A DNA stretch of 64,000 nucleotides from Neorhizobium sp. (GTDB lineage Bacteria; Pseudomonadota; Alphaproteobacteria; Rhizobiales; Rhizobiaceae): NCBI GenBank assembly GCA_028283725.1, contig JAPWKC010000003.1:496001-560000 (forward strand), given 5' to 3'. Positions within the stretch are counted from its first letter, which is position 1. Every line of letters begins with the position of its first letter. Made by a program: the position numbers and the translations under genes. Shown piece by piece: positions 21,753 through 40,093 of the stretch. The notes below the pieces were generated by a model. It was not told the DNA's origin. It ran no database searches and saw only the letters and a list, made by a program, of their open reading frames with translations.

Positions 21753-22679
21753 TTAGATTTCGTGCAGGACGTGGGCGGCCTTGACGGCGGCCGAGGCGCG
21801 ATTTTCGACGCCGAGCTTGACGTAGATCTGCTCCAGATGCTTGTTCACCGTGCGCGACGACAGGCCGAGGATATCGCCGATATCGCGGTTCGACTTGCCC
21901 TTGGCGATCCATAGCAGCACTTCGGATTCGCGCATCGTCAGCGGAAAATGCTGGCGCAGGACTTCGTCGTCCGGCCGGTTGCGTGCAGCCGTCAGGCGAA
22001 AAAGGAATTCGTCCGATCCAATCGCGCCAAGGAAGGACAGTTGCAGGCTGGTCTGGCCGCTTGCTTCGGCAATCGACAAGGCGCTGTCGCGGGCAAAGCC
22101 CGGCTTGTCGCGCTCGGCCATCCATCCGGCGATATGGCGGGCGATCGTGTCGAGGCCTTCATCGCTATTGGTCGCTGCATTGATCAACCGGGTCGCCTGC
22201 GGAGTGGACCAGCGGGTGGAGCCGTCGGCGCGCACCGCAAGCAGATGACGGCCCGCCGCATCGAGCGCCACGCGGGCGCTCTGGGCCGAGCGGGCATTGG
22301 CGAGATGCACGCGAATGCGGGCGCGCAACTCATCGATATTGATCGGCTTGGTCAGATAGTCGACGCCGCCGGCATCGAGCGCGGTGACGACGTGTTCCGT
22401 CTCGGTGAGGCCGGTCATGAAGATCACCGGCACGGGGGCGACCGCGGCATTGGTTTTCAGGCGTCGGCAGGTCTCGAAACCATCCATGCCGGGCATGACG
22501 GCATCGAGCAGGATAAGGTCGGGCGTGATGCGCTCGACGATGTTGAGGGCTGCCTGTCCCGATGTGGCGATCAGGACGGAAAACCCGGATTGTTCCAGCG
22601 CCTCCGTGAGGAAGCCGAGCGCTTCGGGGCTATCGTCCACGAGTAGGACGATATCGCGGGGCAGGGCGGTTTCAGCCAT
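21753..22679 (-). CDS. LuxR-type response regulator, partner of the permease-kinase
   Basis: 308 residues. Receiver domain 1-120 with Asp15/Asp16, phospho-acceptor Asp59 (LILLDAVMPGMDG) and Lys111 (YLTKPI). A middle region of about 110 residues (RADGSTRWSTPQATRLINAA and on) has no motif I recognise. The C-terminal LuxR/FixJ helix-turn-helix lies at about 245-303 (LTMRESEVLLWIAKGKSNRD, LSSRTVNKHLEQIYVKLGV). It is thus a DNA-binding activator or repressor. Its start overlaps the 3' end of the kinase gene by 8 bases, so the two are translated together and are almost certainly cognate. Targets are not evident; liv, urt and the beta-hydroxylase gene are neighbours. Confidence 0.88.
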   Translation of the reverse strand: MAETALPRDIVLLVDDSPEALGFLTEALEQSGFSVLIATSGQAALNIVERITPDLILLDAVMPGMDGFETCRRLKTNAAVAPVPVIFMTGLTETEHVVTALDAGGVDYLTKPINIDELRARIRVHLANARSAQSARVALDAAGRHLLAVRADGSTRWSTPQATRLINAATNSDEGLDTIARHIAGWMAERDKPGFARDSALSIAEASGQTSLQLSFLGAIGSDEFLFRLTAARNRPDDEVLRQHFPLTMRESEVLLWIAKGKSNRDIGDILGLSSRTVNKHLEQIYVKLGVENRASAAVKAAHVLHEI

Positions 22680-25600
22680 CGCTTATCCTTTCCTCTTCGA
22701 GACGCGTCAGGAATTTCATGTAGCCGGCAAGATCGAAGGCCTGAACATAGGTGGTCAGTTCCTCGGTGAAGGGGCGATGCTCCTCGTTTCGCGCGAGATC
22801 GGCAAGCTTTGCCTCTATTCCCCGGACGTAGCCGATTTCGCCGAGCCGCAAAAGATCCTGAACATGGTTCGTCCCCGGCGTTTTGAGCGGTTTTCGCTCG
22901 ATGACGGGCAGATTGGCGCCGGCATCGCTTTCATAGACCCAGGTGAGGCCCAGATGGACGGCCAGCTTGTCCGCAAGCCGGCGGATATCGACAGGTTTTG
23001 CGATCGTGTCGTTATGGCCGGGCGTGCCTTCGTCGATCGACTTCGGATCGACGGGCGCGCCGTCGCCGATATTGGCCGAGAGCATGACGATCGGGGCGGC
23101 CTGCCCCTGTTCGCGCAGGCGCGAGACCAGTTCCCATCCGCTCATGCCGGGCATGGATATATCGACGAGGAAGAGATCGGGCGAGACGCCTTCGATCAAT
23201 GTCAGGCATTCGGTGCCGTCATTGGCGGTCAGAACGACGAAATCCATGGGGATCAGGACTTCGCGCATCAGGGCGCGGTGATCCTCGTTGTCGTCGACGA
23301 CGACGATCGTGCGGCGCGGGCCGGTATAGGAGACGATCTTCTTTTCGGCGGCGGGTGTCGTCACCGGGCGGTCGATCGCCGACAGCATCAGCCGGACACG
23401 GAAGGTGGAGCCCTGATCCTTCGTGCTCTTAACGGAGATCTCGCCGCCGAGCGTGTTGGTCAGCAGTTGCGTAATCGTCAGGCCAAGGCCAAGGCCGGGC
23501 GTCATGCGGTTTCGTTCCGCGTCGCCGCGCTGGAAGGGTTCGTAGATGCGTGCGAGGTCCTTTTCGGCAATGCCTCGGCCGGTATCGGATATGGTGAAGG
23601 TGGCCACCTGATTGCGGTAGGCGATATCGAACGTGACCTTGCCGGCATCGGTGAACTTGATGGCGTTCGACAGGAGATTGACGAGGATCTGGCGCAGGCG
23701 CTTCTCGTCGGTCCTGACATAGTGCGGCAGCGCGCGGGCGCGGACATGGTCGAAGGCCAGCCCCCGCGTCTGGGCCTGAAGCGAGAACATCTCGACGATC
23801 TGGTCGAGGAAATCCTGGATATTGATCTCGTTGGAATAGACCTGAAGGCGGCCTGCCTCGATCTTGGAAATGTCGAGAAGGCCATCGATCAGACCCGACA
23901 GATGGTCGGCGGAGCGCTTGATCACCTTGATCGCCGATTGCCGCGGGGCGGGGATGGTGTCGTCGCGTTCGAGGATCTGGGCGTAGCCGAGCACGGCATT
24001 GAGCGGCGTGCGCAGTTCGTGCGACAGGCCGACGACGTAGCGGCTCTTGGCGCGGTTGGCGGCTTCGGCGGCCTCCTTGGCATCCTGAAGGGCGGCGTCG
24101 GTTTTCTGGTGGGCGGCGATTTCCTTCAGAAGAAGCGTGTTCTGGCGGGAGGATTCCTCCTCCGCCACGACCCGGCTGTCATGGGCAAGAACATAGAACC
24201 ACGAGACGATGCCGGCGATGATGGCGAAGACGAAGAAGACGATGAAGATCGTGCCGAAGATCACCTCTTCATTGGCGGGCGCGGATTCGCGCACCTGATA
24301 GGCGATCATGGCCAAGATCGCGCCGATGACGGAAATCGACAGGAGCGCCGTGATCGCATAGCGGCCGAGCCGCGTCATCAGCTTGGCGATGATGGTTTCC
24401 GGCAGGACGGCGCGGGCGACGGTGCCGACCTGGGTGTTCAGACGCGCATGCGGCTTGCACATGTCGTGGCAGCGGCTGTCGAGCGAACAGCAGAGCGAGC
24501 AGATCGGCGCCGCATAGGCCGGGCACCAGGCCATGTCCTCCGGTTCAAACGGATGTTCGCAGATCGAGCAGGTGATCGACGACAGCGTCTTCCAGCTCTC
24601 GCGCGGCTTGCGGGCGAGATAGTATTTGCCGCGGGTGGCAAAGGCGATCGCCGGCGATATCAGGAAGGCGATCAGGGTGATGTAGGTGGCAAGCGAGGCG
24701 GCGACCGGACCGAAGAGGCCGAAATGCGCTGCAAGCGCCACGCCGGCTGCGCCGAACATCGTGCCGAGGCCGACCGGATTGATGTCGTAGAGATGGGCGC
24801 GCTTGAACTCGATGCCGGGCGGGGCGAGCCCCAGCGGCTTGTTGATGAAAAGATCGGCCGAAATGGTGCAGAGCCAGGCCATGGCGATGATCGAGAAGAT
24901 GCCGAGTGTGCGTTCCAGAAGCTGATAGATGCCGAGTTCCATCAGCAGAAGCGCGATCGCGACGTTGAAGATCAGCCAGACGACGCGGCCCGGATGGCTG
25001 TGGGTGAGGCGCGAGAAGAAGTTTGACCAGGCGAGCGAGCCCGCATAGGCGTTCATCACATTTATCTTCAGCTGCGAGACGACGACGAAGGCCGCCATCA
25101 GGACGAGCGCTGCCGTATGGTTCGGGATCATGTAGCCGAAGGCCGTCAGATACATATGGGCGGGATCTGCCGCCTCGCGGGCGGGAATGGCGGTCGAGAG
25201 CGTCAGGACGGCGAGAAAGGAGCCGGCGAGCAGTTTCGGCACGCCGACGACGACCCAGCCGGAACCGGCCAGGAATATTGCGAGCCGATGGCGCCACTTG
25301 CGCTTGCCATTGCCGGGCAGCGTGGCCGGCAGGAAGCGCAGGAAGTCCACCTGTTCGCCGATCTGCGGCATCAGTGCGAGAATGACGGCGGAGGCGGCGC
25401 CGAATTCCAGGAGATCGAAGGGGGCGGCGCTGCCGACCTGCGCATTCGAATGGTTGATGCCGGCAAAGGAGCGCCAGAGATCGAATTTCTGCCAGTCGAG
25501 GAAGGCGATGAAGACGAAGGGAAGGACGTTGAGGACGATCCAGAAAGGCTGTGTCAGCAGCTGGAACCGGGAGATGAGCTGCACGCCGTAGATGACGAGC

Positions 25601-26085
25601 GGAATGACGACGGCAGCGCTGATGATGTAGCCGATCCAGGGCGGGATGCCGAAGGCGAGCTTGAGGCCCGCGGTCATGATCGAGGCCTCGATCGCAAACA
25701 GCATGAAGGTGAAGCTCGCATAGATGAGCGAGGTGATCGTCGAGCCGATATAGCCGAAACTTGCGCCGCGGGTGAGAAGATCGATATCGACGCCGTGGCG
25801 AATGGCATAGCGGCTGATCGGCAGGCCGATCACCAGCATTGCAATGGCAGCGGCGACGATGGCGAAGAAGGCGTTGGTCGTGCCGTAGGCGAGCGTGATC
25901 GTTCCACCGATCGCCTCAAGCGCCAGAAACGAGATGGCGCCGATCGCCGTCTGGGAAATACGGCTCGAAGAAAAGCGGCGGGCGCTCTTTGCGGTGAAAC
26001 GCAGCGCATAGTCTTCCAGCGTCTGGTTGGCGACCCAACGATTGTATTCACGCCGGACGGGAATGATGCGTTGCCGCGCTGCCAT
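22672..26085 (-). CDS. Hybrid histidine kinase with permease-type sensor domain
   Basis: 1137 residues, all domains in one frame. (1) Residues about 40-490: a 12-helix transporter-like domain resembling NCS1 nucleobase:cation symporters (ISFLALEAIGGTITLAYGTT early on; polar helices at 330-350). (2) Residues 506-543: eight Cys in C-x2-C, C, C-x2-CC, C-x5-C-x3-C order, a likely metal-binding module. (3) Two more membrane helices (573-597, 608-632). (4) A coiled-coil linker, 640-685. (5) Kinase core: H-box His689 (SHELRTP), N-box Asn807, G-boxes DTGRGIA (834-840) and GLGLGL (864-869). (6) Receiver 926-1046 with Asp931/932, phospho-Asp975 and Lys1030. (7) Helical tail. Transporter-kinase fusions are known (CbrA uses an SLC5 domain). 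The ligand is not known from sequence; urea, purines or hydantoins are inferences. Confidence 0.9.
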   Translation of the reverse strand: MAARQRIIPVRREYNRWVANQTLEDYALRFTAKSARRFSSSRISQTAIGAISFLALEAIGGTITLAYGTTNAFFAIVAAAIAMLVIGLPISRYAIRHGVDIDLLTRGASFGYIGSTITSLIYASFTFMLFAIEASIMTAGLKLAFGIPPWIGYIISAAVVIPLVIYGVQLISRFQLLTQPFWIVLNVLPFVFIAFLDWQKFDLWRSFAGINHSNAQVGSAAPFDLLEFGAASAVILALMPQIGEQVDFLRFLPATLPGNGKRKWRHRLAIFLAGSGWVVVGVPKLLAGSFLAVLTLSTAIPAREAADPAHMYLTAFGYMIPNHTAALVLMAAFVVVSQLKINVMNAYAGSLAWSNFFSRLTHSHPGRVVWLIFNVAIALLLMELGIYQLLERTLGIFSIIAMAWLCTISADLFINKPLGLAPPGIEFKRAHLYDINPVGLGTMFGAAGVALAAHFGLFGPVAASLATYITLIAFLISPAIAFATRGKYYLARKPRESWKTLSSITCSICEHPFEPEDMAWCPAYAAPICSLCCSLDSRCHDMCKPHARLNTQVGTVARAVLPETIIAKLMTRLGRYAITALLSISVIGAILAMIAYQVRESAPANEEVIFGTIFIVFFVFAIIAGIVSWFYVLAHDSRVVAEEESSRQNTLLLKEIAAHQKTDAALQDAKEAAEAANRAKSRYVVGLSHELRTPLNAVLGYAQILERDDTIPAPRQSAIKVIKRSADHLSGLIDGLLDISKIEAGRLQVYSNEINIQDFLDQIVEMFSLQAQTRGLAFDHVRARALPHYVRTDEKRLRQILVNLLSNAIKFTDAGKVTFDIAYRNQVATFTISDTGRGIAEKDLARIYEPFQRGDAERNRMTPGLGLGLTITQLLTNTLGGEISVKSTKDQGSTFRVRLMLSAIDRPVTTPAAEKKIVSYTGPRRTIVVVDDNEDHRALMREVLIPMDFVVLTANDGTECLTLIEGVSPDLFLVDISMPGMSGWELVSRLREQGQAAPIVMLSANIGDGAPVDPKSIDEGTPGHNDTIAKPVDIRRLADKLAVHLGLTWVYESDAGANLPVIERKPLKTPGTNHVQDLLRLGEIGYVRGIEAKLADLARNEEHRPFTEELTTYVQAFDLAGYMKFLTRLEEERISDG

Positions 26086-26454: not shown

Positions 26455-27276
26455 GTGGAACCTACATCTTCGAGCGTTTCGAAAGACGAGCAGACGTTCG
26501 GTACGTCCGGCATCCAGCCGATGGACCGTCCGAGCCGTGTCACCCGATTCTTCATGTCGATCGTCTCCTGGGCCGAGCGGCTCAATTACAAGCATGCCAA
26601 GCTCGGCAACCCGCCGGTCTATGACAACAAGACCTTCCCGTGGGTCGCCGAAGTGGAAAAGGCCGCGCCTGCGATCCGCGCCGAGCTCGACCGCATTCTC
26701 GTGCGCAAGGACGAGCTGCCAACCTTCCAGGACATTTCCACCGACGTGAAGACGATCTCCACCGACCGGGGATGGAAGACCTTCTTCCTGCTCGGCTTCG
26801 GCGTGAAATCGCAGCAGAACATCAATGCCTGCCCGGAAACCTGGAAGGCGATGAACAAGATTCCGGGTCTCACGACCGTGATGTTCTCGATCTTCGAACC
26901 CGGCAAGCACCTGCCGGCGCATCGCGGCCCCTATAACGGCGTGCTTCGCCTGCATCTGGGCATGATCGTTCCGGAAAACACCGGCGACAATCTCGCCATC
27001 CGAGTCAAGGACCAGATCTGCCACTGGGAAGAAGGCAAGGTCCTGATCTTCGACGACGCTTATGAGCATGAAGCGTGGAACCACACGGACAAGACCCGCG
27101 TCGTTCTCTTCGTCGATTTCGTCAAGCCGTTGAATTTCCCGGCCCGTCTGGTCAACTGGATGCTGATGAACATGGCGATCTTCACGCCCTTCATCAAGGA
27201 AGGCCTCGACAACCACAAGGAATGGGAAAAGAAGTTCTACGCCGAGGCCGAAGCGCTGCGGAACCGTCCGAACTGA
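26455..27276 (+). CDS. Aspartyl/asparaginyl beta-hydroxylase-like dioxygenase
   Basis: 273 residues from GTG 26455; ATG 26521 is an alternative start and neither has a clear ribosome-binding site. The C-terminal 150 residues carry the Fe(II)/2-oxoglutarate hydroxylase pattern: EPGKHLPAHRGPYNGVLRLH (His156, with the Arg that binds oxoglutarate nearby), then LIFDDAYEHEAWNHT (His205). The N-terminal part has a weak hydrophobic stretch. Bacterial members include LpxO, which 2-hydroxylates lipid A acyl chains, so lipid or protein hydroxylation at the inner membrane is possible. It is divergent from the permease-kinase and followed by a strong terminator. Confidence 0.78.
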   Translation: MEPTSSSVSKDEQTFGTSGIQPMDRPSRVTRFFMSIVSWAERLNYKHAKLGNPPVYDNKTFPWVAEVEKAAPAIRAELDRILVRKDELPTFQDISTDVKTISTDRGWKTFFLLGFGVKSQQNINACPETWKAMNKIPGLTTVMFSIFEPGKHLPAHRGPYNGVLRLHLGMIVPENTGDNLAIRVKDQICHWEEGKVLIFDDAYEHEAWNHTDKTRVVLFVDFVKPLNFPARLVNWMLMNMAIFTPFIKEGLDNHKEWEKKFYAEAEALRNRPN

Positions 27277-27326: not shown

Positions 27327-27498
27327 GCATTCTGGGTCTGTCGTTTTCGCTCGACGCATGCCGCGTCGTAGCCACCTTCCTCCTTCTCCCCCCTCGATAC
27401 GTCATTTGCCGTATGTGGTTTCGCGCTGCAGCAACCGATAGTCGCTCAGCACCGGCCGGGAGCGCCGATGTCGACGAACAATAAGAGGGGTTCGAACC

Positions 27499-28788
27499 AT
27501 GTCTTTCAAAGGAAAGTTTGGCGGCGCATTGCTTGCAGCCGTCATGTCCACCACGGCATTACATGGCGCGTTTGCCGCTGACGACACGATCAAGGTCGGC
27601 GTCCTGCATTCGCTGTCCGGCACGATGGCGATTTCCGAGACGACGCTCAAGGACGCCATGCTGATGCTCATCGACGAGCAGAACAAGAAGGGTGGCCTTC
27701 TCGGCAAGAAGCTCGAGGCGGTCGTCGTCGACCCGGCCTCGGACTGGCCGCTGTTTGCCGAAAAGGCCCGCCAGCTGATCAGCCAGGACAAGGTCGCGGC
27801 CGTCTTCGGTTGCTGGACCTCGTCGTCGCGCAAGTCGGTCCTGCCGGTCTTCGAAGAGCTGAACTCGATCCTGTTCTACCCGGTGCAGTACGAGGGTGAA
27901 GAATCCTCGCGCAACATCTTCTATACCGGTGCGGCCCCGAACCAGCAGGCCATTCCGGCCGTCGACTACCTGATGAATACCGAGGGCGTGAAGCGCTTCG
28001 TGCTCGAAGGCACCGACTACGTCTATCCGCAGACGACCAACAAGATCCTGAAAGCCTATCTGATTTCGAAGGGCGTCAAGGAAAGCGACATTCTCGTCAA
28101 CTATACGCCATTCGGCTTCTCCGACTGGCAGACGGAAGTCTCCAAGATCAAGGCCTTCGGCTCGGCCGGCGTCAAGACCGCCGTCGTTTCCACCATCAAC
28201 GGCGACGCCAACGTGCCGTTCTACAAGGAACTCGGCAACCAGGGCATCAAGGCCGAAGACATTCCGGTCGTCGCCTTCTCGGTCGGCGAAGAAGAACTGT
28301 CGGGCATGGATACCAAGCCGCTCGTCGGCCACCTTGCCGCCTGGAACTATTTCGAAAGCGTCGACAGCCCTGCCAATGCCGCCTTCATCAAGGAATGGCA
28401 CGCGTTCACCAAGAACGACAAGCGCGTGACCAACGACCCGATGGAAGCCGCCTATATCGGCTTCAACGCCTGGGTGAAGGCCGTCGAGGCCGCCGGCACG
28501 ACGGATACGGACAAGGTTCTCGATACGATCATCGGCGTTTCGGTGCCGAACCTATCGGGCGGTGTCGCCACCGTCATGCCGAACCATCACATCACCAAGC
28601 CGGTGCTGATCGGCGAAATCCAGGATGATGGCCAGTTCCAGATCGTCCAGCAGACGCCGGAAGTCGTCGGTGACGAATGGTCCGACTTCCTGCCCGACTC
28701 GAAGAACCTGATCTCCGATTGGCGCAAGCCGATGTCCTGCGGCAACTTCAACGTCGCCACCGGCAAGTGCGGCGGCAAGGGTAGCTGA
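27499..28788 (+). CDS. urtA: Urea ABC transporter binding protein UrtA
   Basis: 429 residues. Signal peptide 1-26 (cleavage after GAFA). The mature part is typical UrtA: IKVGVLHSLSGTMAISETTL, AAVFGCWTSSSRKSVLPVFE, YPVQYEGEESSRNIFYTGAA and the C-terminal LISDWRKPMSCGNFN. It binds urea in the periplasm. AGAGGGG precedes the start. The upstream 170 bases contain short inverted repeats (CGACGC/GCGTCG at 27352-27368 and ATACG/CGTAT at 27397-27414), possible regulator sites. A strong hairpin follows before urtB. Confidence 0.95.
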   Translation: MSFKGKFGGALLAAVMSTTALHGAFAADDTIKVGVLHSLSGTMAISETTLKDAMLMLIDEQNKKGGLLGKKLEAVVVDPASDWPLFAEKARQLISQDKVAAVFGCWTSSSRKSVLPVFEELNSILFYPVQYEGEESSRNIFYTGAAPNQQAIPAVDYLMNTEGVKRFVLEGTDYVYPQTTNKILKAYLISKGVKESDILVNYTPFGFSDWQTEVSKIKAFGSAGVKTAVVSTINGDANVPFYKELGNQGIKAEDIPVVAFSVGEEELSGMDTKPLVGHLAAWNYFESVDSPANAAFIKEWHAFTKNDKRVTNDPMEAAYIGFNAWVKAVEAAGTTDTDKVLDTIIGVSVPNLSGGVATVMPNHHITKPVLIGEIQDDGQFQIVQQTPEVVGDEWSDFLPDSKNLISDWRKPMSCGNFNVATGKCGGKGS

Positions 28789-29074: not shown

Positions 29075-30700
29075 ATGACTTCAAGACTTTTCCTGCAAGC
29101 CTTTCAAGCCATTCTCGTGCTTTTCGTTGTGACCCTCGCAGCGCCGTCGTTTGCGCAGCAGGGCGATCCGAAGCCGCTGATCGACCAGATCGGCAAGGCC
29201 GATTTTGCCCAGGCGGAAACGCTGATCGGGCAGATTGCCGCCACCGGCGATGCGCGTGTCGTGCCGGCGCTGCAGGCGTTTTCCGATGGCGATCTCTACG
29301 TCCGCAAATCCGACAGTCTCGTTTTCATCGGCAAGGGCTCCGGTGCCAATCTCGATCTCACCGAACCCGTGACCGGCGCCTCTGCCGGATCCGCGCCGAA
29401 GGGCGCGATGACGAAACTTCGCATCAACAACAACCTGCGCCGCGCCATCCGCTCGGCCATGGGCGGGCTGACCCTGATGAGCCCGGATCGCGGCACGCGG
29501 CTTGCCGCAGCCGATTCCGTCCTGCGCGCGCCAAGCGCCGAGAACCTCGAACTGCTGGAGACGGCGATCGCCAAGGAAACCGACGGCGAGGTCAAGACCC
29601 GAATGGAAGAGGCACGCGCCGTCTCGATCCTGTCTTCCGACCGGCCGGTCGAGGCCAAGCGGGCGGCGATCACCACGATCAAGGGGCTCGGCGGCCGCGA
29701 GGCGCTCGGAATCTTGAGCGGTGCCGTGGCCACGGCCGATCCGGCGCTGAAGGGCGAGCTTGAGGCCTCCATCAAGTCGATCAACGACACTCTCGCGCTG
29801 TGGGACATGGTGCAGAATGTCTGGTTCGGCCTGTCGCTCGGCTCGGTTCTGCTGCTCGCCGGTATCGGGCTTGCCATCACCTTCGGCGTGATGGGCATTA
29901 TCAACATGGCACATGGCGAAATGGTTATGCTCGGCGCCTATTGCACCTATATGGTGCAGCATCTGATCCGCACCGAAGCGCCGTGGCTTTTCAACTGGTC
30001 GCTGGCGATCGCACTGCCGGTCGCCTTCCTCGTCACCGGCGCCGTCGGCTTCGTCATTGAGCGCGGCATCATCCGCTTCCTCTATGGCCGGCCGCTCGAA
30101 ACCCTGCTGGCCACCTGGGGCGTGTCGCTCATTCTGCAACAGGCGATCCGCACGATTTTCGGCCCGACCAACCAGGAAGTCGGCAATCCATCCTGGATGT
30201 CCGGTTCGTTCGCGCTGGGTGGCCTCAACATCACCTGGAACCGTCTCTGGATCCTCGTCTTTGCCGTCGTCATCTTCTTTTCGCTGATGGCGCTGATGAA
30301 GAAATCGGCCTACGGGCTCAATATGCGGGCCGTCACGCAAAACCGTCGCATGGCCTCGTCGATGGGCATCAGGACGCCCTGGGTGGACGCGCTGACCTTT
30401 GCGCTCGGGTCGGGCATTGCCGGTATCGCCGGTGTCGCGCTCAGCCAGATCGACAACGTCTCGCCGAACCTCGGACAGAGCTACATTATCGACAGTTTCA
30501 TGGTCGTGGTGTTCGGGGGCGTCGGCAATCTGTGGGGCACGCTCGTTGGCGCGCTGTCGCTCGGGGTGCTCAACAAGTTCCTCGAACCGTCCGTCGGGGC
30601 CGTGCTTGGAAAAATCCTCGTGCTCGTCCTGATCATTCTCTTCATCCAGAAACGTCCGCGCGGTCTCTTCGCGCTCAAGGGAAGGGCGGTGGAAGCATGA
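29075..30700 (+). CDS. urtB: Urea ABC transporter permease UrtB
   Basis: 541 residues. A signal-like first helix (ends APSFAQ) and a soluble helical region of about 210 residues are followed by the LivH-like permease domain from about residue 245 (WFGLSLGSVLLLAGIGLAIT, MGIINMAHGEMVMLGAY). This long periplasmic N-terminal region is normal for UrtB. The coupling region is NRRMASSMGIRTPWVDALTF. Stop overlaps the urtC start (ATGA). Confidence 0.94.
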   Translation: MTSRLFLQAFQAILVLFVVTLAAPSFAQQGDPKPLIDQIGKADFAQAETLIGQIAATGDARVVPALQAFSDGDLYVRKSDSLVFIGKGSGANLDLTEPVTGASAGSAPKGAMTKLRINNNLRRAIRSAMGGLTLMSPDRGTRLAAADSVLRAPSAENLELLETAIAKETDGEVKTRMEEARAVSILSSDRPVEAKRAAITTIKGLGGREALGILSGAVATADPALKGELEASIKSINDTLALWDMVQNVWFGLSLGSVLLLAGIGLAITFGVMGIINMAHGEMVMLGAYCTYMVQHLIRTEAPWLFNWSLAIALPVAFLVTGAVGFVIERGIIRFLYGRPLETLLATWGVSLILQQAIRTIFGPTNQEVGNPSWMSGSFALGGLNITWNRLWILVFAVVIFFSLMALMKKSAYGLNMRAVTQNRRMASSMGIRTPWVDALTFALGSGIAGIAGVALSQIDNVSPNLGQSYIIDSFMVVVFGGVGNLWGTLVGALSLGVLNKFLEPSVGAVLGKILVLVLIILFIQKRPRGLFALKGRAVEA

Positions 30701-31869
30701 TCACCCGTTTCATTCTTCGCGCGCTCGAAGGCAAGATCGTTTTCGCCGTCGCGATCCTGATCGGCATTGCCATCCTCGTGCCGGCGCTCAACCTTCTGAC
30801 GCCGCCGACAAGTGCATTGCATATCCCGACCTATGCGATGGCGCTGTTCGGCAAGTATCTCTGCTATGCGCTTCTGGCGCTCGCGCTCGATCTCGTCTGG
30901 GGCTATTGCGGCATCCTCTCGCTCGGCCATGGCGCCTTCTTCGCGCTCGGCGGCTATGCGATGGGCATGTATCTGATGCGCCAGATCGGATCGCGCGGCG
31001 TCTATGGCAATCCGGTCCTTCCCGACTTCATGGTGTTCCTCAACTACAAGGAACTGCCATGGTTCTGGTACGGGATGGACTGGTTCGTGGTCGCGATGGC
31101 CATGGTGCTGCTCGTGCCGGGCCTGCTCGCCTTCGTCTTCGGCTGGTTCGCCTTTCGAAGCCGCGTCAACGGCGTCTATCTGTCGATCATCACCCAGGCG
31201 ATGACCTATGCGCTGATGCTCGCCTTCTTCCGCAACGACATGGGGTTCGGCGGCAATAACGGCCTCACAGACTTCAAGGATATCATCGGCTTCTCCGTGC
31301 AGGCGGATGGCACGCGTGCGGTTCTCTTTGCACTTTCCGCCCTGATGCTGGCGCTCTGCCTCGTCGTCGCTTCGGCCATCACCCGGTCGAAATTCGGCAA
31401 GGTTCTGGTCGGCGTGCGGGATGCGGAAAGCCGGGTGCGCTTCCTCGGGTTCCGGGTGGAGAATATCAAGCTTTTCACCTTCGTCGTCTCGGCCATGTTC
31501 GCCGGCATTGCCGGGGCGCTGTTCGTGCCGCAGGTCGGCATCATCAATCCGGGCGAGTTTGCGCCGGCCAACTCGATCGAAGTGGTGGTGTGGACCGCCG
31601 TCGGCGGCCGCGGCACGCTGATCGGGCCGATCATCGGCGCTATCCTGGTCAATGCGGGCAAAAGCTTCTTCACCGGCGCCTTTCCCGAATTCTGGCTGTT
31701 TGCGCTGGGCGGCCTCTTCATCGCCGTCACGCTCTTCCTGCCGAGGGGCATCGTCGGGACGATCCAGCACGGGTTCAATGCCCGCAAGGCGCTGAAGGCG
31801 GCGGCCGAGGCGGAAAAGGGCCGCGGCGATCCCGATGACGTGGCGCGTGCGGTCCAAGCGGCGGAATAG
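30697..31869 (+). CDS. urtC: Urea ABC transporter permease UrtC
   Basis: 390 residues from ATG 30697, chosen for the four-base overlap with urtB and because the upstream in-frame sequence lies inside urtB. LivM-like permease: LALDLVWGYCGILSLGHGAF, QAMTYALMLAFFRNDMGFGG and WTAVGGRGTLIGPIIGAILV are UrtC family features. Forms the channel with UrtB. Confidence 0.94.
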   Translation: MITRFILRALEGKIVFAVAILIGIAILVPALNLLTPPTSALHIPTYAMALFGKYLCYALLALALDLVWGYCGILSLGHGAFFALGGYAMGMYLMRQIGSRGVYGNPVLPDFMVFLNYKELPWFWYGMDWFVVAMAMVLLVPGLLAFVFGWFAFRSRVNGVYLSIITQAMTYALMLAFFRNDMGFGGNNGLTDFKDIIGFSVQADGTRAVLFALSALMLALCLVVASAITRSKFGKVLVGVRDAESRVRFLGFRVENIKLFTFVVSAMFAGIAGALFVPQVGIINPGEFAPANSIEVVVWTAVGGRGTLIGPIIGAILVNAGKSFFTGAFPEFWLFALGGLFIAVTLFLPRGIVGTIQHGFNARKALKAAAEAEKGRGDPDDVARAVQAAE

Positions 31870-31882
31870 GAGAGGGCATCCC

Positions 31883-32644
31883 ATGAACACTGTTTCAGAA
31901 ACCCGGACGAAGAGCCTGCTCTATCTGGAGGACGTCTCCGTCTCTTTCGACGGGTTCAAGGCGATCAATTCGCTGTCGCTGGTGGTCGAGCCAGGCGAGC
32001 TGCGCGCCATCATCGGCCCGAACGGTGCCGGCAAGACGACGATGATGGATATCATCACCGGCAAGACGAGGCCCGATAGCGGCCGCGTGATTTTCGAAGA
32101 CGAGATCGACCTCACCAAGAAGGATGAGGCCGATATCGCCCAGCTCGGCATCGGACGGAAATTCCAGAAACCCACCGTGTTCGAAAGCCATACGGTGTGG
32201 GACAATCTGGAACTGGCTCTCAACCGCTCGCGCGGCGTGTTTGCAACGCTGTTCTATACGCTGTCGGCGGAGGACAAGGCGCGGATCGAGGAAATCCTTG
32301 CGACGATCCGGCTGGCGCATCGCGCCCACGAGCATGCCGCCAATCTTTCGCACGGGCAGAAGCAATGGCTGGAAATCGGCATGCTTCTGGCGCAGGAGCC
32401 AAAACTGCTTCTGGTGGACGAGCCGGTGGCCGGGATGACCGATGCGGAGACGGCGGAGACCGCCATTCTGCTGCGCGAGATCGCCAAGACACGCTCGGTC
32501 GTCGTCGTCGAGCACGACATGGGTTTCATCCGCGATCTCGGGGTCAAGGTGACATGCCTTGCCGAAGGGTCGGTGCTGGCGGAAGGGTCGATCGATTTCG
32601 TGTCGAACGATCCGAAGGTCATCGAGAACTATCTCGGGCGATAA
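31883..32644 (+). CDS. urtD: Urea ABC transporter ATPase UrtD
   Basis: 253 residues. Walker A GPNGAGKTT, signature LSHGQKQWLEIGMLL (the His-containing form of UrtD), Walker B LLLVDEPVAGMTD and switch VVEHDMGFIRD. The start at 31883 is chosen because AGGAGAGGG lies about 8 bases upstream; an in-frame start inside urtC is less likely. Confidence 0.95.
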   Translation: MNTVSETRTKSLLYLEDVSVSFDGFKAINSLSLVVEPGELRAIIGPNGAGKTTMMDIITGKTRPDSGRVIFEDEIDLTKKDEADIAQLGIGRKFQKPTVFESHTVWDNLELALNRSRGVFATLFYTLSAEDKARIEEILATIRLAHRAHEHAANLSHGQKQWLEIGMLLAQEPKLLLVDEPVAGMTDAETAETAILLREIAKTRSVVVVEHDMGFIRDLGVKVTCLAEGSVLAEGSIDFVSNDPKVIENYLGR

Positions 32645-32657
32645 TTGGGGCAATAAG

Positions 32658-33353
32658 ATGCTGACAGTCGATAACGTCAATCTCCATTACGGTGCGGCTC
32701 AGGCGCTGCGCGGTGTGTCGATCACGGCCGAAATGGGCAAGATCACCTGCGTGCTCGGACGAAACGGGGTGGGCAAATCCTCGCTTTTGCGCGCCGTGAC
32801 AGGGCAGCATCCGATATCGGGCGGCACGATCTCGTTCAACGATGCGACGCTCAATGGCCTTGCGCCGTATGTTCGTGCCAAGCATGGTATCGGCTACGTG
32901 CCGCAGGGGCGCGAAATCTTTCCGCTTCTGACGGTGCAGGAAAATCTCCAAAGCGGTTATGCGCCGCTCGCCCGCAAGGACCGGTCCATACCCGACGAGA
33001 TCTTTACGCTGTTTCCGGTCTTGAAATCCATGCTCGGGCGGCGCGGCGGGGACCTTTCAGGCGGGCAACAGCAACAATTGGCGATCGGCCGGGCGATGGT
33101 GACGCGGCCGAAGATCCTCGTGCTGGACGAACCGACCGAGGGCATCCAGCCGTCGATCATCAAGGATATCGGCAGGGCAATCCGTTACTTGCGGGACAGT
33201 ACCGGCATGGCGATCCTGCTGGTCGAGCAGTATCTGGATTTCTGCCGGGAACTCGCCGATCAGGTGTATATCATGGACCGCGGCGAGATCGTTCACGCTG
33301 GGCTCGCCGAGACGCTCGACACCGCAGAAGCGCGCAGACATCTCACTGTCTAG
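32658..33353 (+). CDS. urtE: Urea ABC transporter ATPase UrtE
   Basis: 231 residues. Walker A GRNGVGKSS, IGYVPQGREIFPLLTVQENL, signature LSGGQQQQLAIGRAM and Walker B ILVLDEPTEGIQPS. It starts 14 bases after urtD with GGGG upstream. Last gene of urtABCDE. A 191-base AT-rich gap follows before the esterase gene, with no T-run hairpin found. Confidence 0.95.
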   Translation: MLTVDNVNLHYGAAQALRGVSITAEMGKITCVLGRNGVGKSSLLRAVTGQHPISGGTISFNDATLNGLAPYVRAKHGIGYVPQGREIFPLLTVQENLQSGYAPLARKDRSIPDEIFTLFPVLKSMLGRRGGDLSGGQQQQLAIGRAMVTRPKILVLDEPTEGIQPSIIKDIGRAIRYLRDSTGMAILLVEQYLDFCRELADQVYIMDRGEIVHAGLAETLDTAEARRHLTV

Positions 33354-33544: not shown

Positions 33545-34819
33545 ATGGATTTTGCTCGCACTGCCGGTATCCTTTCCCGATCCGCTCTTGCCCGCCTGAC
33601 GGCAGCAGGGGCGATTTTTCTGGGCGCCGCGACCCTGATGGGCGTTTCGGCCACCAGCGCAGAGGCCGCAGGCTGCGGCTTTTCCATGGAAAAAGGCCGG
33701 CACCCGATCAGCTTTGACGTCAATGGCGTCAAGCGCGAGGGCGAGTATTTCGTTCCGTCCTCCTATACGGGTAAGGACAAGGTTCCGGTCGTTTTCGATT
33801 TCCATGGCAGCAACAGCAATCCGGATGGACAGTTCGACCGTTCGTCCTGGGACAAGGTGGCCGAGAAGAGCGGTTTCATCGCCGTTGCGCTACAGGGCAG
33901 TCTTTCGGGCAAGGCTGCCGGCACCTATGGCTGGAACGTGCCTTTCGTGCAGGTGAACCAGCAGATCCTGCCGACCGGCGCTGCCGGCGGCCAGGACGAG
34001 ATCGCCTTCATCGATCAGGCAGTCAAAACGATCAACCGAGAATTCTGCGTCGATCCGGCGCGCGTCTTCGCGTCGGGTTATTCCGGCGGCGGGCGCATGC
34101 TGTCGGCCTATCTCTGCTCCGGTGGCGAGGGATTTGCCGCTGCCGGTTTCGTCAATTCGCTGCGCGCCGGCCGGCCGGTCGAGGATGACGGCAAGTGGGG
34201 ACCGGAGGCTTCAAATTGCAGCCCGGCCAAACCCGTCTCGATCATGGCCTTTGCCGGCATCAAGGATCAGCAGAACCCCTATGCCGGCGGCGGTGCGGCC
34301 TATTGGCAATACGGGTTCAAGACAGCAATCCAGCGCTGGAGCGATCTTGATGGCTGCAAGGGCGATGCCGATCCGAAGACGATCGACGGCGTGACCTACA
34401 GCATCTATTCGACCTGCAGGAGCGGTGCGCGCATCGCCACCTACGTCTTCGCCAATGGCACGCATGACTGGCCGAAGCCGGCGCCGGCCGCGGAAGCCGT
34501 GATGGCCGCCGCCAAGGATGCCGCTGCCGGCGTCACCAAGGTTTCCGCTTCTGCGATCAAGCCGAAGCTTGCCTTCGATCCCAATGTTGATCCGGCTTCC
34601 AGAATGTGGGACTTCTTCGGCAAGGCCGACAGCACGGATGTCGTCGCCGCTGTCGCTCCTGCAAGGCCTGTCGCCGTGAAATCCGGTCTCGGTGCGGAGA
34701 CTGGCACGGGCGTTGCTTCCGATTGCGCAATGGAAGCAGATAGTCAGGATCAGACGTGCAACAGCATTCAGCCGCTCAACATGCGCCGCAGCGGGCAAGG
34801 GGTACAGGACGCCTTGTAA
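33545..34819 (+). CDS. Secreted PHB-depolymerase/feruloyl-esterase-like hydrolase
   Basis: 424 residues. Signal peptide to about residue 42 (TSAEAA-GCG). Alpha/beta-hydrolase core with oxyanion motif FHGSNS (87-91), nucleophile elbow GYSGGG (Ser180), probable acid Asp241 ([10 protein letters not shown]) and His307 (NGTHDWP), the esterase/PHB-depolymerase (LpqC-like) triad. Cys residues at 168, 191, 225, 271 and 291 could form disulfides, as in secreted esterases. About 100 C-terminal residues are Ala-rich and unassigned. Its last 64 bases overlap the ureD start in another frame, an unusually long overlap. It sits between urea import and urease without an obvious functional tie. Substrate unknown. 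Confidence 0.75.
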
Positions 34820-35580
34820 CCAAGGCTTTCGGCGGGCGCACGAGGCTCGACGAGTTCTACCAGGAAGGCTGCGCAAAAATTCGCCTTCCGGAAACGTTTT
34901 CGCCTGAAATGGAGGCGATCCTCATCAATACGTCAGGGGGACTGACGGGCGGCGACGTGATCGATTGGTCCGTCGCCGCTGCTGATTCCACGCGCCTGTC
35001 GATCACCACCCAGGCGAACGAAAAAATCTACAAGGCGGCCGACGGGACGGCCTCGGTCTCCACCCATATCACTGTCGGCGAGAACGCTTCCGTTCACTGG
35101 CTGCCGCAGGAGACTATCCTCTTCGATCATGCTTCGCTGACGCGGCGGCTCGACGTGGATCTGGCGGAAAATGCCGAGTTTCTCGCCGTCGAGGCGGTGC
35201 TTCTCGGCCGCAAGGCGATGGGCGAGGCGGTGGGGCAGGGCTTTTTCCGCGATCGCTGGCGGATCCGCCGCTCAAGCCGGCTCATCCATGCCGAAGACAT
35301 GAAATTCGAAGGCGAAATCGCGCATCTCGCCGAGCAGGCCGCCGTGCTTTCGGGCCAGGTGGCCTTCGCGACGCTGTTTTACAGCGGGCCGCTTGCCGAG
35401 GTCCTGTTTCCGAGGCTCAGGGCCTGCCTCGAGGGAACATCCGGCGGCGCAAGCCATTGGAACGACAAGATTGTCGCGCGTCTCGTGGCGCCTGTCGGCT
35501 TCGATCTGAGAAAAATCCTCGTGCCGGCGATTTCCGTCTTGCGTAACGGCGCGCCAGTGCCGAAAGTCTGGAACATCTGA
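34756..35580 (+). CDS. ureD: Urease accessory protein UreD
   Basis: 274 residues from GTG 34756. Family features: [60 protein letters not shown] and [15 protein letters not shown]. UreD (UreH) is the scaffold on which UreF and UreG activate apo-urease with nickel. The N-terminal residues [14 protein letters not shown] align with other rhizobial UreD proteins, which supports a start near here even though it overlaps the esterase gene. ureA follows 23 bases later. Confidence 0.93.
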
Positions 35581-37131: not shown

Positions 37132-37386
37132 ATGGCAGATACGGCGAAAATTACGACGAAAAACCAGATCACATTGCCTGCCAATGTCAGAAAATCGCTT
37201 GGTGTTTCGACCGGTGACATGGTTGATTTCGTCCGCAACGAAGCCGGTTATTTCGAAGTGCGGGCGCGCAAATATACGTTTGCAGACCTGCGCGGAATGG
37301 TGAAACTCGACAGGCCAGTTACCGACGAGGAACTGGCGCAGTGGATCGATGATGCAAGAGCCGGTACCCGTGGGGAGGGCGAATGA
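37132..37386 (+). CDS. vapB: AbrB/SpoVT-type antitoxin
   Basis: 84 residues. The N-terminal swapped-hairpin DNA-binding domain is clear (KITTKNQITLPANVRKSLGV, GDMVDFVRNEAGYFEV). The C-terminal half (DRPVTDEELAQWIDDARAG) is the toxin-neutralising tail. TAAGGAGG lies 8 bases before the ATG. The stop overlaps the PIN toxin start (ATGA), the classic toxin-antitoxin layout. The complex probably represses its own promoter in the 125-base gap upstream, where CTTAC/GTAAG form a short inverted repeat. Confidence 0.85.
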   Translation: MADTAKITTKNQITLPANVRKSLGVSTGDMVDFVRNEAGYFEVRARKYTFADLRGMVKLDRPVTDEELAQWIDDARAGTRGEGE

Positions 37387-37793
37387 TCGGAGTCGATACC
37401 AATGTTCTTTTGCGTTGGATCGCTTCCGACGTGGTTGGCACAGATGATGCTCGGCATCAGTCGTTGATTATCGAGGATATGATCGCGGATGGCCGCGAAC
37501 CGATCTTTGTCAATCATGTCGTGCTGGCGGAAGCCGTCTGGGTTTTGCGAAGGCGGGCCGGCGTCTCCAAGCAGACTTTGATCGAGGTGATCAATGTCAT
37601 TTTGAATTCTACAAACGTGGTTGTCGATGATCGGGATACGGTCGTTGCGGCGTTCAGCGATTACGGTCGTCAACGCGGCGATTTCCCCGATCAGCTGATT
37701 GGCCAGATCAATGTAACAAAGGGCTGCCGGACAACGATGACGTTCGACAAGACCGCAGCTCAATCGTCCAATTTTTCCGAACTGACGAGGTAA
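37383..37793 (+). CDS. vapC: PIN-domain toxin (VapC-like ribonuclease)
   Basis: 136 residues. The PIN acidic set is complete: Asp5 (GVDTNVLL), Glu50 (LAEAVWVL), Asp100/Asp103 (GDFPDQLIG) and Asp122 (TFDKTA), which bind the metal ions for RNA cleavage. It overlaps its antitoxin by four bases and ends four bases before ureC. Base use is visibly less GC-rich than ureB and ureC on either side, which suggests acquisition by transfer. It looks intact. Confidence 0.85.
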
Positions 37794-37797
37794 TTCC

Positions 37798-39507
37798 ATG
37801 CCCTACAAGATGTCCCGTGCCTCCTATGCCTCGATGTTCGGTCCGACCACCGGCGACAAGGTGCGGCTGGCCGATACCGAGCTATTCATCGAGGTGGAGA
37901 AGGATTTCACCACCTATGGGGAAGAGGTGAAATTCGGCGGCGGCAAGGTCATCCGCGACGGCATGGGCCAGAGCCAGGCGACGCGCGCCGAAGGCGCCGT
38001 CGATACCGTCATCACCAATGCGCTGATCGTCGATCATACCGGCATTTACAAGGCCGATGTCGGCCTGAAGAACGGCCGGATTCACGGTATCGGCAAGGCC
38101 GGCAACCCCGATACGCAGCCGGGCGTGACCATCATCGTCGGCCCGTCGACGGAAGCGATCGCCGGTGAAGGCAAGATCCTGACAGCCGGCGGCATGGACG
38201 CGCATATCCACTTCATCTGCCCGCAGCAGATCGAGGAAGCGCTGATGTCCGGCGTTACCTGCATGCTCGGCGGCGGCTCCGGCCCGGCGCATGGCACGCT
38301 TGCCACGACCTGCACCGGCGCCTGGCATATCGAGCGGATGATCGAAAGTTTCGACGGCTTCCCGATGAACCTTGCGCTTGCCGGCAAGGGCAATGCGGCG
38401 CTGCCGGCGCCGCTCGAAGAAATGATCCTCGCGGGCGCCTCGTCGCTGAAGCTGCATGAGGACTGGGGCACGACGCCGGCTGCCATCGACAACTGCCTCA
38501 CGGTCGCCGACCAGTATGACGTGCAGGTGATGATCCACACGGATACGCTGAACGAAAGCGGCTTCGTCGAAGATACGGTCGCCGCCATCAAGGGCCGCAC
38601 CATCCATGCCTTCCACACGGAAGGCGCCGGCGGCGGTCACGCGCCCGACATCATCAAGATCTGCGGCAACCCGAACGTCATCCCGTCATCGACCAATCCG
38701 ACGCGGCCCTATACGGTCAACACGCTGGCCGAACATCTCGACATGCTGATGGTCTGCCATCACCTGTCGCCGTCGATCCCGGAAGACATCGCCTTTGCCG
38801 AAAGCCGTATCCGCAAGGAAACGATCGCGGCGGAAGACATTCTGCACGATATCGGCGCCTTCTCGATCATCTCGTCGGACAGCCAGGCCATGGGCCGTGT
38901 CGGCGAAGTGGCAATCCGCACCTGGCAGACGGCCGACAAGATGAAGCGTCAGCGCGGCCAGTTGAAGGAAGAGACCGGCGACAACGACAATTTCCGCGTT
39001 CGTCGTTACATTGCCAAATACACGATCAACCCGGCGATCGCCCATGGCGTTTCCCACGAGATCGGCTCGGTCGAGGTCGGCAAGCGCGCCGATCTGGTGC
39101 TCTGGAACCCGGCCTTTTTCGGCGTGAAACCGGAAATGGTGCTGCTCGGCGGCTCGATCGCAGCTGCCCCGATGGGCGATCCGAATGCCTCGATCCCGAC
39201 GCCGCAGCCGATGCATTACCGCCCGATGTTTGCCGCCTATGGCAAGCTGCGCACCAGTTCCTCCGTTACCTTCGTGTCGCAGGCCTCGCTCGATTTCGGT
39301 CTGGCGGCTCGTCTCGGCGTTGCCAAGAACCTGGTTGCGGTGAAAAATGTCCGCGGCGGCATTTCCAAGGCCTCGATGATCCACAATTCGGCAACGCCGC
39401 ATGTGGAAGTCGACCCGGAAACCTATGAAGTGCGGGCCGATGGCGAGCTCCTGACCTGCCAGCCGGCAACCGAACTGCCGATGGCGCAGCGCTATTTCCT
39501 GTTCTGA
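37798..39507 (+). CDS. ureC: Urease alpha (catalytic) subunit
   Basis: 569 residues. Nickel ligands are visible: [14 protein letters not shown] (two His), the carbamylated Lys in [24 protein letters not shown], and the flap [20 protein letters not shown] with the catalytic His. Hydrolyses urea to ammonia and carbamate in the cytoplasm. It starts four bases after the vapC stop, so its translation follows the toxin gene. ureE follows 37 bases later. Confidence 0.98.
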
Positions 39508-39544: not shown

Positions 39545-40093
39545 ATGGACCATATCCATTCCTACCGCCCGGCCGGCGAGATCACCGATCCGCCGGTCGA
39601 TACCGTGACACTGCCGCATGACCTGCGCCATCTGCGTCGCAAGCTCCTGCATCTGTCCAACGGCGGCATGGTGATGCTCGACCTGAAAGAAGCCGTGCTC
39701 TTCCATGACGGCGACCGGCTGGTGCTCGACAGCGGCGATACGATCGAGGTGAAGGCGGCGCCCGAAAAGCTGTTCGAAGTGCGCCCGCGCAATAGGCTGC
39801 ATCTGATCGAGCTTGCCTGGCATCTCGGCAACCGGCATCTTTCAGCGCAGATCGAGGAGGATCGCATCGTCATCCTTCGCGATCATGTGATCCGCTCGAT
39901 GCTTCAGGGGCTTGGCGCCATGGTGCTCGATATCGAGGAGCCGTTCCAGCCGGCGCGCGGGGCTTATCATGCGCATGGCGGGCAGTCGCATGGGCATGAG
40001 CAACATTCCCACGATCATCACGGTCACGATCATCACGGTCATGATCACCATGATCACGCTGGTCATGACCACTCCCACCATTCGCATGACTGA
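39545..40093 (+). CDS. ureE: Urease nickel metallochaperone UreE
   Basis: 182 residues. The N-terminal part is the UreE peptide-binding domain ([20 protein letters not shown]), followed by the metal-binding domain ([20 protein letters not shown], the paired His). The C-terminal about 40 residues are extremely His-rich, more than 20 His with Asp and Gly, suited to nickel storage. The coding DNA of the tail is a degenerate CATGATCAC-type repeat. Delivers nickel to the UreDFG complex. Confidence 0.95.

Follow-up and report, generated by a model that had tools for sequence, protein, structure and literature searches.

Gene content of the locus and recurrence of the kinase

The window analysed here is a 64,000-nucleotide stretch from Neorhizobium sp., in which a kinase-regulator gene pair and the genes olsC and urtABCDE are transcribed in opposite directions away from each other, and ureD, ureC and ureE lie further along. 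Its features are as follows (window positions, strand, description).

21753..22679, minus strand: partner response regulator of 308 aa, with receiver and GerE (LuxR/NarL) helix-turn-helix domains (Pfam)
22672..26085, minus strand: hybrid sensor histidine kinase, whole gene, one intact frame of 1137 aa
22963..23307, minus strand: receiver of the hybrid kinase, Asp975 (Pfam)
23383..23712, minus strand: HATPase_c catalytic domain (Pfam)
23851..24048, minus strand: HisKA, His689 (Pfam)
24208..24357, minus strand: two further membrane helices, residues 577-626 (hydropathy)
24457..24570, minus strand: eight-Cys module, residues 506-543, invariant in 100/100 and 62/62 aligned sequences (sets described below)
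24631..25953, minus strand: 12-helix transporter domain of NCS1-like type, roughly residues 45-485 (hhalign and hydropathy)
27398..27413, no strand assigned: palindrome TACG-N8-CGTA, putative operator, 85 bases from the urtA start
27499..28788, plus strand: urtA, urea ABC transporter binding protein (TIGR03407, 556 bits against a cut-off of 493)
29075..30700, plus strand: urtB, open reading frame with a domain match from residue 247 (TIGR03409)
30532..31869, plus strand: urtC, open reading frame with a domain match from residue 96 (TIGR03408)
31835..32644, plus strand: urtD (TIGR03411)
32559..33353, plus strand: urtE, open reading frame with a domain match from residue 35 (TIGR03410)
34756..35580, plus strand: ureD (PF01774)
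37798..39507, plus strand: ureC, urease alpha subunit (TIGR01792)
39545..40093, plus strand: ureE (PF02814 and PF05194)

The original prediction of a 1137-residue frame was correct in both coordinates and length, and the gene lies on the minus strand. A Pfam scan of the whole kinase at E 0.01 returned only HisKA (residues 680-745), HATPase_c (792-901) and receiver (927-1041) domains, with His689 as the phosphoacceptor and Asp975 as the receiver aspartate; these three domains, together with the conserved His and Asp, identify a hybrid histidine kinase. The hydropathy profile, in which 28 overlapping peaks were merged by eye, contains 12 membrane stretches as far as residue 483, followed by another two at residues 577-595 and 608-626. 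Hydropathy and Pfam thus agree with the predicted series of a 12-helix domain, two extra helices, a kinase core and a receiver. The regulator gene shares 8 bp with the end of the kinase gene, and its product scores over the cut-offs for PF00072 and PF00196, as is characteristic of LuxR/NarL-type regulators.

In a one-per-species genome collection, 519 stretches encode a relative of the sensor. The best 80 of these 519 loci (the close loci, nearly all Rhizobiaceae by title) match the sensor query at 82-92% identity and have frames of 1125-1199 aa in 80/80 cases, a recurrence showing that the sensor is neither a product of chance nor an assembly artefact; a fusion created by assembly is ruled out, as the long frame is found again in related loci. 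A survey of the class gave a match in 21/289 genomes, with the long form in 20 (own genome included) and a lone NCS1 protein in the 21st, while a profile survey of the phylum gave a match in 56/398 genomes, a small number of these matches being incomplete or lacking a kinase. Relatives of the sensor also occur on 531 plasmid records, 342 of which are from the heavily sampled Klebsiella and some of which may be kinase-less; the 25 Klebsiella plasmid matches listed have 47.7-47.8% identity.

From these surveys, 60 loci were chosen by hand (20/21 class match rows and 40/63 phylum rows), and 57 were kept as distant loci after removal of two loci that lack a kinase, L129 and L169, and of the partial L198, which has an internal stop. 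The distant kinases, the window kinase and four from named plasmids form a set of 62 kinases. Eight kinase-less relatives were also compared, seven from among 20 matches listed, plus one more.

Three further observations concern the window itself. The gene olsC, for an ornithine lipid hydroxylase (26455-27276), lies between the kinase and urtA and is present in 18/80 close loci. A PIN-domain open reading frame (37383-37793, E 1.7e-6) ends four bases ahead of ureC. An open reading frame of 424 residues after urtE (33545-34819) has no Pfam match and may not be a gene.

The transporter domain and the cysteine module

Profile comparison supports the assignment of the transporter domain as NCS1-like, and neither SLC5 nor APC. 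When 58 sensors were aligned with 34 NCS1 sequences in hhalign, the match had a Prob of 98.9 and an E of 3e-17 over 392 columns, compared with a Prob of 2.3 over 59 columns for SLC5 (11 sequences) and 3.2 for APC (25 sequences), both being control sets with frames selected for their length and hydrophobicity. The alignment pairs DFSRY of NCS1 helix 6 with VDFLRF of the sensor, and helix 8 is aligned around Asn342 and Asn345. Direct searches gave a different result: at a threshold of E 10, residues 1-500 are matched by none of the Pfam transporter families, PF02133 included, the sensor falls below the curated NCS1 cut-off (PF02133 / TIGR00800), and the kinase's own genome contains no PF02133 match. 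A phmmer search of the transporter part against the PDB found nothing relevant, a profile search with the same part returned a single entry (zinc finger protein 183-like 1, E 4), and two lone NCS1 proteins, when searched against the PDB, produced chance matches only. An AlphaFold model was poor (mean pLDDT 53, with 51 near relatives as the alignment); in a Foldseek search of this model against the PDB, CodB was the top match and Mhp1 the fourth, at low TM-scores and with other LeuT-fold families close behind CodB. As there is no direct Pfam match to a transporter, the NCS1 assignment rests on the profile comparison and these weak fold matches.

The original prediction had named an NCS1-like domain in preference to SLC5, had proposed a check against transporter-family HMMs, and had staked itself on the region having a transporter fold. 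The family preference is supported and the fold is found by profile comparison; in the HMM check, that comparison succeeded (NCS1, 98.9) and the direct Pfam match of residues 1-500 failed. An SLC5 kinase identity was rejected on the basis of the low hhalign Prob and the lack of an SSF match in the Pfam scan. That scan also showed no STAC linker in the kinase, a domain for which Pfam may hold no model.

Seven residues of the carrier core, E133, Q241, D247, R250, K340, N342 and N345, are identical in 62/62 kinases and 8/8 kinase-less relatives. In the alignment with Mhp1, Lys340 falls on Ser312, which we take to bind sodium, and Glu133 on Gln121, presumably a ligand residue. The position aligned with Trp117 of Mhp1, whose role we assume to be ring stacking, is occupied by Phe in 54 of the 62 kinases and by Leu in the other 8. 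Such a pocket would be consistent with a small ligand that has no ring and with the absence of sodium. The sensor shares a family with the NCS1 permeases Mhp1 and CodB, by profile comparison and a weak structure match, and is distinguished from them by the lack of a PF02133 match, the kinase fusion, the Cys module and the lysine at the Ser312 position.

The cluster of eight cysteines predicted at residues 506-543 is exact, with cysteines at 506, 509, 521, 529, 532, 533, 539 and 543 in the pattern CxxC-x11-C-x7-CxxCC-x5-C-x3-C; the only other cysteines of the kinase are at 406 and 960. All eight are invariant in 100/100 aligned sequences (the window, the 80 close loci and 19 class-genome loci, with own-genome copies and the lone NCS1 protein L109 left out) and in 62/62 kinases of the broader set. 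The absence of these cysteines in close homologues, which the original prediction had named as the outcome that would count against it, was not observed, as they are kept in every homologous kinase compared. In the 100-row alignment, carrier stretches 101-125 and 351-375 show higher conservation than the Cys module.

Among the eight kinase-less relatives, which come from named plasmids, the C-terminal module keeps from 1 to 8 cysteines: eight in Methylovirgula, five in Streptomyces, four each in Acinetobacter, Klebsiella and Moraxella, and a single one in two Arthrobacter and in Tsukamurella. Because kinase-less NCS1 relatives carry it, the module belongs to the NCS1 branch and is no linker peculiar to the kinase, and the idea of a kinase-specific invention was rejected for the same reason. 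On this point the original interpretation, which is supported in part, had to be changed. Four eight-Cys peptides, two of them the window's own, had no match in Pfam at E 10, known zinc families included, and a four-Cys kinase-less relative matched Zn_ribbon_SprT at E 0.06 only. Judging from sequence, the module likely holds zinc and probably serves as a structural zinc site.

Neighbouring genes and a palindrome upstream of urtA

Genes for the uptake or hydrolysis of urea or short amides lie near the kinase in 53/57 distant loci, where UrtA is present in 44, formamidase in 32, urease genes in 11, aliphatic amidase in 9 and allophanate hydrolase in 4 (neighbour clusters were checked by curated models on one representative each). 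In the remaining 4/57 loci, L117, L118 and L128 (one genus) and L121, they are absent from the examined stretch. The urtA gene is found in 69/80 close loci and is absent from the stretch in 11/80, some of which are ended by contig ends. A relative of the regulator accompanies the kinase in 80/80 close loci and 52/57 distant loci. The same surroundings are seen on three named plasmids, with urtABCDE and formamidase at the Klebsiella locus, urease and urt in Novosphingobium, and formamidase with an AmiS/UreI transporter in Paracoccus. The original prediction of a nitrogen compound as the signal remains likely, and this neighbourhood narrows the candidates to urea and short-chain amides. On the Klebsiella plasmid L276 (NZ_CP089326.1), the block of kinase, urtABCDE and formamidase genes is flanked on both sides by transposase genes.

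The sensor and Cys module are also fused to a non-hybrid kinase without a receiver (L165:7499-10156, L187:7663-10347 and, in Paracoccus, L278:9929-12550), and formamidase genes lie near all three. In a tree, the kinase-less forms fall into a single clade (0.996) that sits next to the non-hybrid kinases (0.58), a topology that does not settle whether the kinase-less forms came first. Six of the eight kinase-less relatives (L367:4971-6578, L366:4980-6587, L369:4953-6596, L372:5016-6704, L277:9932-11608 and L370:4944-6593) lie near urease, formamidase or amidase genes, and 2/8 are without any such gene annotated nearby. The six are annotated as cytosine/allantoin permeases or hypothetical proteins, and are candidate urea or short-amide permeases. 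On the Methylovirgula plasmid pHY1 (L370:260-6593), a hybrid kinase, a regulator and the kinase-less relative with eight cysteines are adjacent to one another and to an aliphatic amidase gene.

Searching for dyads in 59 regions upstream of the kinase yielded ATACG-N8-CGTAT. The relaxed form TACG-N8-CGTA, chosen after the distant set had been viewed, is present in 31/57 distant kinase upstream regions, with other gaps of 2 to 15 bases each found in at most 1/57, and the exact motif is absent from 26/57. It occurs in 16/79 close kinase upstream regions of 420 bp and is absent in 63/79. At close loci the motif lies 83-108 bp upstream of 66/67 urtA genes when gene starts are set from the stop codon by assuming a UrtA of 429 residues, a figure inflated by the relatedness of close strains, and other gaps of 5 to 11 bases are each found in at most 1/67. 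Measured from the start of the longest open reading frame, 51/67 close urtA genes have the motif within 500 bp; L052, the one miss in the count of 66/67, has a strict site by its open reading frame start. The discovery set overlaps with the 67 close urtA genes in L060 only, although the close loci had been inspected earlier with the strict form. This strict form, TACGTCA-N2-TGACGTA, was rejected as too narrow; it is found at 50/67 close urtA genes and, with two mismatches, at 4/16 urtA genes near a kinase in class genomes.

The motif is associated with the presence of the kinase. In the 289 class genomes, 77 urtA genes exceed the curated cut-off; among these, it precedes 8/16 near a kinase, 3/18 elsewhere in kinase genomes and 0/43 where no kinase was found, the last count presuming that the kinase and urtA surveys covered the identical 289 genomes (same handles). 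The comparison of 8/16 with 0/43 gives a Fisher value of 6e-6 with relatedness ignored, and 8/16 is probably low, since the urtA upstream regions taken for L334, L335 and L339 ended short of sites upstream of the kinase. The motif is absent in 15/18 other urtA genes of kinase genomes, and the three that have it are from one genus (G033, G162 and G260), in which the kinase is not beside urt.

Within the window's own genome (4.08 Mb, 78% complete), the extended motif has a single site, which lies 85 bases ahead of urtA, and a reversed control pattern has two; as the control is the more frequent, the number of sites is unremarkable and the placement is what stands out. Looser versions show no enrichment: the window has 12 where 9.4 are expected, and the genome has 23, against 73 of the reversed pattern. 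Paired 7-base arms separated by 2 bases have the spacing of NarL-type sites, and the partner regulator may bind TACG-N8-CGTA. Neither this motif nor the partner regulator figured in the original prediction.

A proposed sensor of urea and short amides

In combination, these observations make it probable that the window encodes a transceptor-like hybrid kinase that senses urea or short amides and, through its regulator, turns on urt, fmd or ure genes. The NCS1-type domain, kin to a permease branch, would act as the receptor and directly bind urea and/or short-chain amides such as formamide and acetamide. Ligand occupancy of the central pocket would alter the carrier bundle, and the Cys module, probably with its structural zinc, and the two extra helices would relay this change to the kinase core, in a switch whose direction we infer. 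Phosphate would then pass to the overlapping LuxR/NarL-type regulator, which would bind TACG-N8-CGTA upstream of urtA and activate the urea/amide uptake operon; in other species, the regulator would activate formamidase, amidase or urease genes. The evidence is good for the target genes and weaker for the ligand.

The invariance of the carrier core in 62/62 kinases and 8/8 kinase-less relatives would also suit a true transceptor, in which the NCS1 domain itself actively imports urea or amides, coupled to protons or sodium, and the kinase reads turnover rather than occupancy, and CbrA is a precedent titled with both transport and kinase activities (PMC7096432, from the accessible part of that source). 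However, an ABC importer is already present at most kinase loci (UrtA in 44/57), and active import is considered unlikely. A different ligand, either a product signal (ammonium or cyanate) or, in keeping with known NCS1 members, a hydantoin or nucleobase, appears quite improbable: PF02133 is described as comprising permeases for cytosine, purines, uracil, thiamine and allantoin, but no nucleobase or hydantoin gene is found among the annotated recurring neighbour clusters (many small clusters lie outside the annotation), and the sensor has Phe or Leu at the Trp117 position of Mhp1. Least probable of all is that the Cys module is the real sensor, of zinc, nickel or redox state, with the NCS1 part as an anchor or modulator: the eight cysteines are invariant in 62/62 kinases and urease, which requires nickel, could argue for that metal, but formamidase is commoner near the kinase than urease genes (32 vs 11 of 57), carrier stretches 101-125 and 351-375 are better conserved than the module, and its partial erosion in kinase-less relatives fits a structural part.

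A receptor derived from a carrier, as favoured here, has known parallels. The accessible text on the SLC5/STAC kinases CbrA (PMC13022988, PMC7096432), CrbS (PMC5715377) and RpuS (PMC9100948) describes carriers fused to histidine kinases that govern nutrient genes, as in the window kinase, and CrbR is given as a LuxR-family regulator requiring an imperfect inverted repeat (PMC5715377). Unlike these, the window kinase has an NCS1-like carrier, the Cys module and two helices where theirs have the STAC domain, and urea/amide genes nearby. In Ks-Amt5, a nitrogen-source carrier has likewise been recruited as a kinase receptor; there the carrier is Amt and the ligand ammonium, and the accessible part of the paper does not mention a Cys module (PMC5764959). 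The ammonia sensor GrtK was rejected as a counterpart, being PilS-like and of a different build in the part of its description available (PMC12918730).

The gene kinds beside the window kinase, which import and hydrolyse short amides and urea, are those of fmdCABDEF in Methylophilus methylotrophus and of urtABCDE. According to the available text of a review, fmd is induced by formamide and urea; that text names a putative positive regulator for the cluster and no sensor kinase (PMC10781810). A literature search, mostly without subscription papers, found nothing among the papers listed on an NCS1-fused kinase sensor, the Cys module or the palindrome. This is a real and conserved variant of the carrier-linked kinase that is, as far as seen, undescribed, and that may be in print elsewhere.

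More broadly, it is an evenly balanced proposition that an undescribed, Pseudomonadota-wide class of urea/short-amide transceptors exists, in which the NCS1 branch with the C-terminal Cys module serves as the receptor of a kinase where the two are joined and, as a free protein, is a urea/amide permease that has gone unrecognised, with TACG-N8-CGTA as its own operator. The window kinase and its relatives would supply a sensor for the urea and short-amide genes of many Pseudomonadota, rhizobia included. An NCS1 carrier joins the few known carrier-kinases, so that whether occupancy or transport is read can be asked in an independent system. The palindrome offers a putative operator open to direct testing, and candidate urea/amide permeases come into view under other names.

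Genome papers, as judged from their accessible parts, already report kinases of this description together with urtABCDE. In Ectopseudomonas, a hybrid kinase and a LuxR regulator occur with the urtABCDE operon (PMC13296017), and in Dechloromonas, a 1131-residue kinase and a 308-residue receiver protein lie beside UrtA (PMC2907700, Table 4); both kinases may be homologues of the window kinase. Pseudomonas veronii carries amiE-fmdA-fmdB-urtABCDE, with amiC and amiR reported as not found (PMC13209695).
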